A stretch of 64,000 bases of DNA, taken from Streptomyces sp. Q6 (lineage in GTDB: Bacteria; Actinomycetota; Actinomycetes; Streptomycetales; Streptomycetaceae). Below the pieces are notes generated by a model, which saw only the letters and a program-made list of their open reading frames with translations, was not told the DNA's origin and did not search any database. The position numbers and the translations under genes were made by a program. Position 1 is the first letter of the stretch, and every line of letters begins with the position of its first letter. Where the stretch lies: contig NZ_CP146022.1 in assembly GCF_036967205.1 (NCBI RefSeq), positions 372,001 to 436,000 on the forward strand. The letters run 5' to 3'. Of the stretch, positions 26,529 through 53,838 are shown in pieces.

Positions 26529-27562
26529 TCAGCAGATCCTGGGGAGTTGTTCGCCGAGCGGCAGGTCGACGATCCGGCGCGCGCCCACCGAGGTGCGCAG
26601 GGTGACGCGGCCGGGCGCTTCGGCGACCGCTGCTCCGATGCGGGTCGCCTGGGCTCCCTCGGGCAGGGCGCGCAGCGCGTCGAGTGCCGCGTCGGCGTGG
26701 CCCGGGTCCACGAAGGCGACCATGCAGCCTTCGTTGGCGACGGTGAGCGGGTCGAGGCCGAGGAGGTCGCAGGCCGCGGCGACGACGGACGGTACGGGCA
26801 GGGTCGTCTCGTCGATCTCCACGCCGATCCGGGCGTCGCGGGCGATCTCGTTGAGGGCGGCGGCGAGTCCGCCCCGGGTGGGGTCGCGCAGGGTGTGGAC
26901 GGCCGGGCCGAGCGGGGCGAGCCGCGCCACGAGCCGGTGCAGGGGCCGGGTGTCGGAGGCGATGTCCGCTGCGAAGCCGAGGCCTTCGCGGGTGGACAGG
27001 ACCGTGGTGCCGTGCAGGCCGAGGGGCCTGACAGGAGGATCGCGTCGCCCGGCCGGGCGCGGGCCGCGGACGGGGTGAGGCCCGGGATGCGGCGGCCGAC
27101 GCCGGTGGTGGTGAGGAAGAGCCGGTCGGCGGCGCCCCGGCCGACGACCTTGGTGTCGCCGGTGAGGACGGGCGCGTCGGCGTCCCGGGCGGCCTTGCCC
27201 GCGGACTGGAGCACCGCGCGCAGGTCGGCCAGCGGCAGGCCCTCCTCCGCGATGACGGCCAGCGCGAGGGCGAGCGGCAGGGCGCCGCGCATGGCGAGGT
27301 CGTTGACGGTGCCGTGCACGGCGAGGGAGCCGATGTCGCCGCCGGGGAAGAACAGCGGGCTGACCACGAACGCGTCGGTGGTGAGGACGAGTCGGCCGTC
27401 GCCGGGCAGCAGCGCCGCGTCTTCGAGCACCCCGTCCGGCGGGGCGCCGAGGGCGGGCAGCACGATGTCCTCGAGGAGCTCGGCGGTCAGCCGGCCGCCC
27501 GCGCCGTGGCCGAGCAGGAGCGTGTCGTGTTCCGGGTGCGGCAGGGGGCAGTTCACGTTCAC
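26529..27562 (-). CDS. hypE: [NiFe]-hydrogenase maturation protein HypE, frame broken once
   Basis: HypE dehydrates the thiocarbamoyl group on its own C-terminal Cys to thiocyanate, the CN source for the active-site iron. The GTG start at 27562 overlaps the hypD stop. The N-terminal half (LLLGHGAGGRLTAELLEDI, then GDTKVVGRGAADRLFL) and C-terminal half (LRDPTRGGLAAALNEIA, then VANEGCMVAFVDP, ending LPRIC with the essential terminal Cys) lie in different frames. Adding one G at the run 27023-27026 joins them into a normal 344-residue protein. Probably sequence error, because the C-terminal Cys and all motifs are intact. Confidence 0.9.
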
Positions 27563-28679
27563 GGCGCACTCCTCACGGGCGGGGTGTCGGCGGCGCGGGC
27601 GCGGCCCGCGAGGTGGAAGGCGGCGCACGTGCCCTCACTGGAGACCATCGGCGCGCCGAGCGGCGTGCGGGGGTGCAGCGGGTGCCGTACGCGGCGCAGT
27701 CGGTGGGCAGCGCGGCGCCGGTCAGGACGGCTCCCGCGACGCACGCCGGGTCCTCGGCCGGGCACAGGTCGCCCACGTCGAAGCGGTGCGCGGCGTCGAA
27801 CTCGCGGTAGGCGGGGGCGAGTTCGAAGCCGCTCGCCGGGATGACGCCGATGCCGCGCCAGGCCCGGTCCGTGACGCGGAACACCTCGGTCAGGGCGTCC
27901 TGGGCGTCGGTGTTGCCGTCGCGGCGCACGGCACGTACGTACTGGTTCTCCACCGCGTGGCGGCCCCGCTCCAGTTGCTCGACCGCCATGAGGATGCCTT
28001 CGAGGAGGTCGAGCGGCTCGAACCCCGTGACCACGATGGGGACACGGTGGCGGGCGGCGATCGGCTCGTAGGCCCGCCAGCCCATGACGGCGCAGACGTG
28101 ACCGGCCGCGAGGAAGGCCTGGACCTCGCAGTCCGGGTCCTCCAGGAGAGTGGTCATCGCGGGCGGCACGAGGACATGGCTGACCAGGACGGAGAAGTTC
28201 GTCAGGCCCAGGCGTGCGGCGTGCAGCACGGCCATGGCGTTGGCGGGCGCGGTCGTCTCGAAGCCGACGGCGAGGAACACGACCTCCCTGTCGGGGAGTT
28301 CGGCGGCGAGGCGCACCGCGTCCATGGGGGTGTAGACGACGCGGACGTCGGCGCCGCGGGCGCGCAGGGTGAGCAGGTCCGTCGTGGAGCCGGGGACGCG
28401 CAGCATGTCGCCGAAGCTGGTGAGGACGGTGCCGGGGCGGGCGGCGATCGCCATCGCCCGGTCCAGGGTCTCCAGCGGGGTGACGCAGACCGGGCAGCCG
28501 GGGCCGTGGATCATGCGGATGCCGGCGGGCAGGAGTTCGTCGATGCCCTGGCGGACGAGGGTGTGGGTCTGGCCGCCGCAGACCTCCATGATCCGCCAGG
28601 GCCGGGTGGCCCTGGCGGTCAGATCGGCGAGGAGGCGACGGGCCAGGACCGGGTCGCGGTACTCGTCGAGGTACTTCAT
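27559..28679 (-). CDS. hypD: hydrogenase maturation protein HypD, frame broken near the C-terminus
   Basis: HypD is the Fe-S scaffold that, with HypC, assembles the Fe(CN)2CO unit. Conserved motifs are [17 protein letters not shown], the [11 protein letters not shown] loop, [11 protein letters not shown] and [14 protein letters not shown]. The last part ([17 protein letters not shown]) is one frame off; adding a G at the run 27669-27673 gives 373 residues, normal for HypD. It starts at ATG 28679, overlapping the CBS-BON gene, and its stop overlaps the hypE start, so translation of the three is coupled. Confidence 0.92.
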
Positions 28680-29314
28680 GGCGTGGTGAAGTCCATGCGG
28701 ATGTCGACCACGCCCTCGACGGCCCGGGCGAGGCGGGCGGCGACGGGCACCAGGTTGCGGTTGCCCAGCTTCCCGCCGAAAGTGACGACGCCCTCGTGCA
28801 CCGAGACGGTGACGGGCTGGTCGGGGAACAGGTAGGCGGCGACGGTGTCGCGTACCTCCTCCTCGATGTCGGAGTCGGGGCGCAGGAACACCTTCAGCAG
28901 GTCGGAGCGGCTGACCACGCCCTGGAGGATGCCCTCGGAGTTGACGACGGGAAGCCGCTTGACCGTGCGCTGGGCCATGATGCGGGCGGCCTCGGCGAGG
29001 GTGGCGTCGGCGTGCACGCACACGGCGGGGCTGCTCATCAGCTCGCCCGCGCTGACCGCTCCGGCCTTGGCCAGGTCGGACAGGCGGCGCAGTTGGTCGC
29101 GGCGGGTCGGGTCGGCGTCGCGGAACTCCTCCTTGGGCAGCAGATCGGCCTCGGAGACGACACCGACGACGCGGGCCTCGCCCTCGAGAACGGGGACGGC
29201 GCTGACGTTCCACTGCTCCATGAGCGCGACGACCTCTTTGAACAGGGCGTCACGACCGACGGCCACCACGGTGTGGGTCATGACGTCGCTGACGATGTGC
29301 GGACCGGATTTCAC
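28676..29314 (-). CDS. CBS-domain protein with C-terminal BON domain (in hydrogenase operon)
   Basis: A 212-residue protein from GTG 29314 with a GGAGG site. Two CBS motifs ([20 protein letters not shown], then [24 protein letters not shown]) form a Bateman module that normally binds adenine nucleotides. Residues about 145-212 are a BON domain ([17 protein letters not shown]), usually a membrane or ligand contact. Nine bases separate it from hyhL and it overlaps hypD by four. A matching CBS-BON gene lies at 35.4-36.1 kb, so two paralogues sit in the island. It may link hydrogenase output to energy charge; this is inference. Confidence 0.9.
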
Positions 29315-52833: not shown

Positions 52834-52848
52834 GCCGGGCGGCGCGTC

Positions 52849-53838
52849 TCACCCCTCGTACACCTCGCGCGGGGAGCGGCGCGGTGTGACGGGTCCCTCG
52901 GGCCCGTAGCCGAACCGCACGACCATGTGCGCGTGACCCCGGTGGTCGGGCGCCGCGCTGACCTTCCTGCGCAGGTCCGGCCACTCCATCGCCTGATGGA
53001 GCAGGGAGGAGCGCAGCTGGTGCGCGGTGGCCACCAGGAGGACGTGTTCCAGGGCCTGTCCGGCGCGCAGCCAGTCGGCGCGCCGGTCGTGCGCGGTGGT
53101 CAGTACGGCGATGGCGGGGGCGCGTTCGAAGTCCCTGGCGGGCAGCGCGCTCGGCCTGCGCCGCGCGGTGAAGTCCCGCATGGGCACCACCTCACGGGCG
53201 TCCTGCGGGCCGAGGACCGAGCGCGGCATCCCGTCCCCGGGCGTTCCCGCGCCGCCGTCCCGGCGGACCCACCGCCGGCTCTCCGCACCGCGCAGGGCGT
53301 CGCTCCGGTTGCGCTGCTCGGCCTCCGCCGTGACGCGCAGCACCACGGTGCGCTCGGCGGGGTCCGGGAAGGTGAGGGCGGCGCCGCTCGCGTGGGCGGC
53401 TTCGGCGAGTTCGGCCCGTACGTCGGCGGGAACGGGGTGTTCGGAGAACGGGAACCTGCTGCTGTGCCGGCGCCAGATCACGTCGTACAGGTCGGACCGG
53501 TGCCCGTTGAAGCCGCGTACGACGGCGGGGGCGAGCCGCACCCGGGCGAGCAGCTCGGGGTCGTCCGGGCTCGGCAGCAGCCGGGTCACGGGCAGCCAGC
53601 CCGAATGGGCCACCGCGATCCGGAGGTTGAAGACCGCGGCACCCACCGACAGGTGCAGGGCCCGCCCGGCCGCGTCCACCGCGCGCAGCCCGCGCTCGGG
53701 GGCGGCGCGCACCTCCAGGGCGGCGGTGTCCGTGTCGAGGCGGAAGGTCCACGGCTGGGTGTTGTGGATGGACGGCGCGGCGACGGCCGCGGAGATCCAC
53801 GTCTCCAACTCCGCCGCGTGCAGCACCCCGTGGTTCAT
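52849..53838 (-). CDS. Acg-type nitroreductase family protein
   Basis: A 329-residue FMN-fold protein like Acg (Rv2032), a DosR-regulon member that sequesters flavin in mycobacteria. ATG 53838 was chosen because GGGAGG precedes it at good spacing; GTG 53847 is the alternative. Motifs are AAVAAPSIHNTQPWTFRL, LHLSVGAAVFNLRIAVAHSG, SSRFPFSEHPVP and a C-terminal VVRFGYGPEGPVTPRR. It is convergent with the kinase gene, 15 bases between the stops, and a candidate dyad lies 79-92 bp upstream. Confidence 0.88.
   Translation of the reverse strand: MNHGVLHAAELETWISAAVAAPSIHNTQPWTFRLDTDTAALEVRAAPERGLRAVDAAGRALHLSVGAAVFNLRIAVAHSGWLPVTRLLPSPDDPELLARVRLAPAVVRGFNGHRSDLYDVIWRRHSSRFPFSEHPVPADVRAELAEAAHASGAALTFPDPAERTVVLRVTAEAEQRNRSDALRGAESRRWVRRDGGAGTPGDGMPRSVLGPQDAREVVPMRDFTARRRPSALPARDFERAPAIAVLTTAHDRRADWLRAGQALEHVLLVATAHQLRSSLLHQAMEWPDLRRKVSAAPDHRGHAHMVVRFGYGPEGPVTPRRSPREVYEG

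Follow-up and report, generated by a model that had tools for sequence, protein, structure and literature searches.

Is a group 3b NiFe hydrogenase of Streptomyces controlled by an oxygen-sensing system? The question is raised by a stretch of 64,000 nucleotides of Streptomyces sp. Q6 (C1:372001-436000, hereafter the window, from a genome of 8.95 Mb, or 8,951,745 bases, in two contigs), in which the hydrogenase genes hyhB, hyhG, hyhS and hyhL share an island with genes for a two-GAF histidine kinase, a NarL-type response regulator and universal stress proteins (USPs). We consider it likely that this is a low-oxygen survival island under a control system of the DosRS/OsdKR type, and control of the island by OsdR is supported by sequence. 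The original prediction, made from the letters alone, had listed these genes along with others of maturation, stress and carbon metabolism, and Pfam scans confirm its list inside 26529-53847 (Table 1), the fourth USP being a broken gene just ahead of hyhB whose match (2.9e-4) falls below the cut-off. The scans add a cyclic-nucleotide-binding protein within the hyh operon, a flavodoxin, and a fusion of GNAT and NDP-forming acyl-CoA synthetase.

Putative oxygen sensor, predicted OsdR boxes and hydrogenase

As to the sensor, the GAF A domain of the kinase aligns end to end with DevS/DosT (2y8h, 2.6e-50), the best match among solved structures, and it preserves the HPPMxTFLG and LYLT segments, in keeping with a putative heme domain; the His and Tyr of these segments presumably have a role there. 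The regulator is of the DevR/OsdR type, its match to DevR (3c3w, 3.6e-79) standing far above that to VraR (1.3e-42). Together with the boxes scoring 16.0-18.0 at the starts of presumed units, these matches bear out the earlier suggestion of DosRS/OsdKR-like control, as far as sequence can carry it.

As to the boxes, the weight matrix was built from 25 Streptomyces OsdR sites (PMC5069765), and distances refer to predicted gene starts and to presumed transcription units. Predicted boxes sit 40-120 bp ahead of the units of the USP leading into hyhB, the acyl-CoA synthetase, the regulator/USP3 and hycI/USP1, placing them at the putative promoters of the island; the OsdR boxes of Streptomyces coelicolor mostly lie 50-160 bp upstream (PMC5069765). 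The strongest box in the window (18.0) heads the unit that leads into hyhB. Sites scoring at least 12 number six in the window (10 shuffles average 0.9), with four inside the island and those at 2066 and 3491 outside it. Sites scoring at least 15 are found only five times in 1,164,000 of the 8,951,745 bases of the genome; three of these are in this island (binomial 1.2e-4, reckoned post hoc), while the fourth precedes a second osdR-like gene.

Boxes are also seen in relatives, where a site of at least 12 within 520 bp of hyhB occurs at 21 of 76 loci, versus 69 of 1431 random stretches, its start falling at -82 to -114 in 16 of the 21. The genus was sampled through 150 genomes, including that of the window, and 30 of them encode HyhL, in 31 loci: 17 of type A (hypD and hypE both within a 20-kb stretch, 35 kb for the window) and 14 of type B (without both there). 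A box at -40 to -150 precedes hyhB in 11 of 16 type A loci (10 of 15 without the window) versus 2 of 12 type B loci, with the window scored as positive by hand, its box being placed before the leading USP, and with G097, G138 and G088, which yielded no full HyhL, left out; on the HyhL tree, independent co-occurrences of type and box are too few for a test. The families enriched in type A and absent or rare in type B, as judged by likeness to the window genes, are HypC-F, USP, flavodoxin, nitroreductase, PPDK and acyl-CoA synthetase. All 17 type A loci encode a member of the cyclic-nucleotide-binding family, as do 11 of the 14 type B loci.

A number of observations weigh against OsdR control of a working hydrogenase. 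No box of at least 12 is present within 520 bp upstream of hyhB in 55 of the 76 relatives, which include L005, among the nearest kin of the window, and all 13 Mycobacterium/Mycolicibacterium loci; the matrix is made of Streptomyces sites. In the window itself, hyhB's own site is weak (6.8 at -82), where relatives carry strong ones, and the best site upstream of the nitroreductase-family gene reaches 7.6. The genome encodes a second DevS/DevR-like pair at 525-528 kb (C1:525270-527728; kinase 51%, regulator 73%), with a predicted box of 16.0 before its regulator, and this pair could act instead of that of the island. A further kinase (42%) is encoded at 4226 kb, and the third regulator (64%) at 4367 kb; among the nine scanned neighbors of the second pair, no hypoxia genes are recognized other than a cyclic-nucleotide-binding protein. 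Five genes of the island are frameshifted, making a non-functional hydrogenase possible, and HypA and HypB were not found in the genome, both points being considered in the sections below.

Some of this evidence would suit a mere neighborhood, in which hydrogenase and dormancy genes came together by chance or transfer and the regulator controls its own USP/PPDK part only. In agreement with this, an OsdR-like gene (at least 60%) is found in the hyh flanks (up to 10 kb) at only 9 of 80 loci, leaving 71 without (6 of the 31 genus loci have one, the window's counted), and box-less loci are the majority. However, it is the top box of the window that heads the unit into hyhB, and the position of the box is conserved in 16 relatives, and we regard such an explanation as very improbable.

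As to the hydrogenase itself, its four subunits B, G, S and L, with Fer4_22, NAD-binding, small-subunit and large-subunit domains, respectively, have the composition of group 3b, and HyhL possesses both the N-terminal and the C-terminal CxxC pairs, with Sulfhydrogenase 1 alpha as its best solved relative (4e-59; entries 9nez and 9e15, which we take to be Pyrococcus furiosus sulfhydrogenase 1). The Pyrococcus furiosus enzyme shares the four-subunit make-up, but that system is archaeal. HyhL is the sole NiFe large subunit above the family cut-off in the genome, a weaker match in a 1057-residue frame being taken as a complex I subunit. Its relatives are mostly from Streptomyces, and on the HyhL tree one of the same-genus genomes (G022) is on a zero-length branch beside Streptomyces blattellae (L012).

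Under OsdR control, low oxygen (or NO or CO) would be read by the GAF kinase, which is presumed to bind heme and to respond to O2, and the kinase would phosphorylate the DevR-like regulator. The latter would bind the boxes and switch on the regulator/USP3-PPDK-kinase, hycI-hypFC and USP1-XFP units; two further units, USP-hyhBGSL-CBS-hypDE and acyl-CoA synthetase-CBS-flavodoxin, would be activated as well. Acting as a soluble enzyme linked to NAD(P), the group 3b hydrogenase, its nickel presumably inserted without HypA and HypB, would re-oxidise NAD(P)H via H2 evolution, or might work in the opposite direction. Carbon would meanwhile be rerouted by phosphoketolase, PPDK and the acyl-CoA synthetase.

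A parallel is known from Mycobacterium smegmatis. According to the accessible parts of PMC2799521, the gene numbers of its NiFe hydrogenase Hyd3 (msmeg_3927-3931) run straight into those of a DosR-type cluster that includes a copy of devR (msmeg_3932-3955), and Hyd3 is induced as much as 67-fold at an oxygen saturation of 0.6%; the M. smegmatis hydrogenase is placed in group 3b, and fermentative H2 production by the mycobacterial enzyme is cited, in the accessible parts of PMC6311188. Because Hyd3 lies beside a devR cluster, the island is the Streptomyces form of a hypoxia arrangement already known from actinobacteria. However, while the M. smegmatis genome has hypA and hypB (MSMEG_2722, MSMEG_2721; PMC2799521, same parts), no HypA/HypB were found here, and in the window the hydrogenase is accompanied by hypCDEF of its own and by genes for phosphoketolase, PPDK and acyl-CoA synthetase. 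Another related system is the OsdKR cluster of S. coelicolor, SCO0167-SCO0219, which shares the kinase, the regulator, USPs, PPDK, a nitroreductase and the 16-bp box (PMC5069765, accessible parts), but has a nitrate reductase and a transporter, and the word hydrogenase is absent from the main text of that paper; in the accessible parts of PMC6302529 the word is used once, for NADH hydrogenase. The original prediction had known of no description of a group 3b hydrogenase in an OsdR-controlled Streptomyces island, and no report of one was found in the literature as judged by titles and the beginnings of abstracts; as to novelty beyond Streptomyces, the M. smegmatis locus is a precedent. If our interpretation is true, fermentative H2 turnover would be placed inside the Streptomyces OsdR dormancy programme, as with DosR in mycobacteria, with exact sites to point to.

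Frameshifts: assembly error or decay

Comparison with relatives and Pfam indicates frameshifts in five genes of the assembly: hypE, hypD (at its C-terminus), hypF, the acyl-CoA synthetase gene and the USP gene that precedes hyhB. A short second HypD piece lies in another frame (21 bits, below the cut-off), and hypE is an intact single frame in relatives (L004, L005, L007, L010). A frame model was applied to 987,547 coding bases of a 1.16-Mb sample of the same genome and to 327,945 bases in 19 control stretches of other genomes, one more control (L133), with 11 shifts and about 0.2 Mb from a contig end, being dropped as an outlier. It returned 53 minus-one and 33 plus-one shifts, versus 4 and 6 in controls; 42 of the 53 minus-one shifts have a G/C run no more than 20 bases away, versus 1 of the 4 control ones. 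Given this genome-wide minus-one excess beside G/C runs, the frameshifts are probably consensus errors in the assembly.

The distribution of the shifts offers some support for decay, in which case the hydrogenase is being lost, the genes for HypD, HypE, HypF, the USP and the acyl-CoA synthetase have become pseudogenes, and only the regulator/USP/PPDK/phosphoketolase part works. Minus-one shifts are seen in the window at about 12.9, 27.0-41.3, 45.6 and 56.1 kb. At a penalty of -20, seven of nine such shifts fall at 27.0-41.3 kb, and no larger cluster than these seven within 14.2 kb of island is seen in the 1.16 Mb sampled, which counts against consensus error, as does the comparison of the window slice, with nine shifts, to the 16 other type A loci, which have 0-2 shifts each, except for G097 (6). 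On the other hand, all nine are minus-one, the signature seen across the sampled genome; other minus-one clusters exist, at 460, 473 and 4417 kb; the frames of hyhB, hyhG, hyhS and hyhL are open in the assembly; and no internal stop interrupts any of the nine fragments into which the broken genes are split. Essential genes did not settle the matter of error versus decay, as the ten open frames beside 7 of 16 listed shifts represent transport, glycosyltransferase or regulator genes or belong to no family. On balance, decay appears to be an unlikely explanation, and assembly error the preferred one.

HypA, HypB and nickel insertion

The hydrogenase operon had been called complete in the original prediction, and this is incorrect, because of the frameshifts described above and because no HypA or HypB was found. 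HypA has no match anywhere in the genome, and the best match for HypB reaches 78 bits, against a cut-off of 121, the archaeal ATPase-type HypB not having been searched. HypC, HypD, HypE and HypF are all encoded in the island (the last three frameshifted in the assembly). A hydrogenase without detectable HypA/HypB is the less expected feature added here to the known arrangement, and it may be matured without this standard nickel-insertion pair.

Similar observations can be made across the genus, in which 17 of the 30 hyh genomes have HypA and 18 have HypB above the cut-off, the extra one (G097) having a partial HypB only. HypA is missing for 13 of 17 type A versus 0 of 14 type B loci (Fisher 1.9e-5, the rows not being independent); on the tree, type and HypA loss form just three independent pairs on starred branches, too few, and HypA presence switches at least eight times on the 28-row HyhL tree. 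None of the 13 HypA-less genomes (one of which, G097, looks damaged, with its six shifts, and another, G102, is in about 1420 contigs) encodes a further NiFe hydrogenase with a strong match, above 140 bits, versus 15 of the 17 HypA-bearing ones (the exceptions are G106 and G148). In a class-wide draw of 394 genomes, 97 encode HypD, and 80 of those were tested for HypA: it is absent from 6 of 28 genomes with HyhL, thus present in 22, versus 1 of 52 without HyhL (Fisher 0.0065), and the sole HyhL-less genome lacking HypA carries HypD fragments only.

As none of the 28 HyhL sequences checked, out of 31 loci, has lost either metal-binding motif, nickel is presumably still inserted. No HypA/HypB substitute was seen in the locus among the families conserved in type A loci. 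A route through urease chaperones is possible, since the weak HypB match is taken as a UreG-like protein. We give an even chance to the broader proposal that Streptomyces and some other actinomycetes possess OsdR-type islands with a self-contained group 3b hydrogenase, matured by HypCDEF without HypA/HypB and supplied with nickel by a novel route (urease chaperones or direct), the loss of HypA being tied to the hydrogenase being the sole one.

One precedent comes from Clostridium, in which HypCDEF were found in five acetogens while HypA/HypB went undetected, and for which the authors suggest an unreported nickel route (PMC9431212); these belong to a different phylum, and no link to an oxygen-sensing island is made in the accessible parts of that paper. 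A 2025 review considers all six Hyp proteins necessary, while high laboratory nickel can bypass HypAB, and it presents the HyhL of Thermococcus kodakarensis, a relative of the one described here, in complex with HypA (PMC12134894, accessible parts), a partner not found in the genome of Streptomyces sp. Q6. No actinobacterial report of a HypAB-less system is among the literature matches listed, as judged by titles and the beginnings of abstracts. If true, the HypA/HypB-less hyh loci open the question of nickel supply to NiFe enzymes in aerobic, culturable hosts.

Gene layout and neighboring features

Table 1. Features of the island, in window positions; gene starts are predictions.
Feature	Position	Strand	Remarks
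hypE	26529..27640	-	AIRS_C + AIRS; two frames in assembly, break near 27.0 kb; 5' end approximate
hypD	27573..28679	-	PF01924, 9.6e-133; C-terminus frameshifted
CBS-BON protein	28676..29314	-	Pfam
hyhL, NiFe large subunit	29324..30688	-	PF00374; both CxxC metal motifs and C-terminal tail
hyhS, small subunit	30685..31491	-	PF01058
hyhG, NAD(P)-binding subunit	31488..32300	-	PF00175
Cyclic-nucleotide-binding-domain protein, in hyh operon	32297..32761	-	PF00027
hyhB, 4Fe-4S subunit	32758..33888	-	PF17179; start placed from relatives
USP	33960..34690	-	weak Usp piece; frameshifted, ends approximate
OsdR box (predicted)	34786..34801	.	18.0; about -113 of USP leading into hyhB
Flavodoxin	34816..35331	-	PF12724
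CBS-BON protein, second	35358..36068	-	Pfam
GNAT + NDP-forming acyl-CoA synthetase	36108..38829	-	PF13549, GNAT, CoA_binding_2, Succ_CoA_lig; frameshifted, 5' end approximate
hypC	38796..39173	-	PF01455
OsdR box (predicted)	38889..38904	.	16.5; about -108 of acyl-CoA synthetase start; inside 3' end of hypC frame
hypF	39170..41465	-	acylphosphatase, zf-HYPF, YrdC, HypF_C pieces; three frames in assembly
HycI-type endopeptidase	41470..41946	-	PF01750
Two adjacent weaker OsdR-like boxes	42025..42063	.	11.2 at 42025, 12.9 at 42048; divergent hycI/USP1 promoter
USP (USP1)	42140..43012	+	PF00582
Phosphoketolase (XFP)	43083..45452	+	Pfam
USP	45440..46333	+	possible frameshift near 45.6 kb, only at looser penalty
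DevR/OsdR-type response regulator (NarL-type)	46363..47058	-	nearest 3c3w
OsdR box (predicted)	47162..47177	.	16.0; -119 of regulator, -42 of USP
USP (USP3)	47204..48256	+	Pfam
PPDK	48271..50946	+	Pfam
DevS/DosT-type two-GAF histidine kinase	50986..52833	+	nearest 2y8h
Nitroreductase-family protein, taken as Acg-type	52849..53847	-	Pfam

In the acyl-CoA synthetase fusion, whose unit carries a predicted OsdR box, the GNAT domain comes first, and the AASHT segment aligns with a solved enzyme, 4xyl. The whole gene is present in 9 of 17 type A loci (the split gene of the window excluded) and in 1 of 14 type B loci. Another family of uneven distribution is that of a 190-residue protein without a Pfam match (L189:13785-14357), found in 8 of the 17 type A loci and in none of the 14 of type B, which we assume to resemble the DosR-regulon protein Rv1733c. 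One genome (G101) holds both types of hyh locus (L184 and L207), on a single contig and separated by about 8.9 Mb. Just outside the island, at 53966-57551, the window encodes PEP mutase-type, AhpC/TSA and FecCD transport functions.

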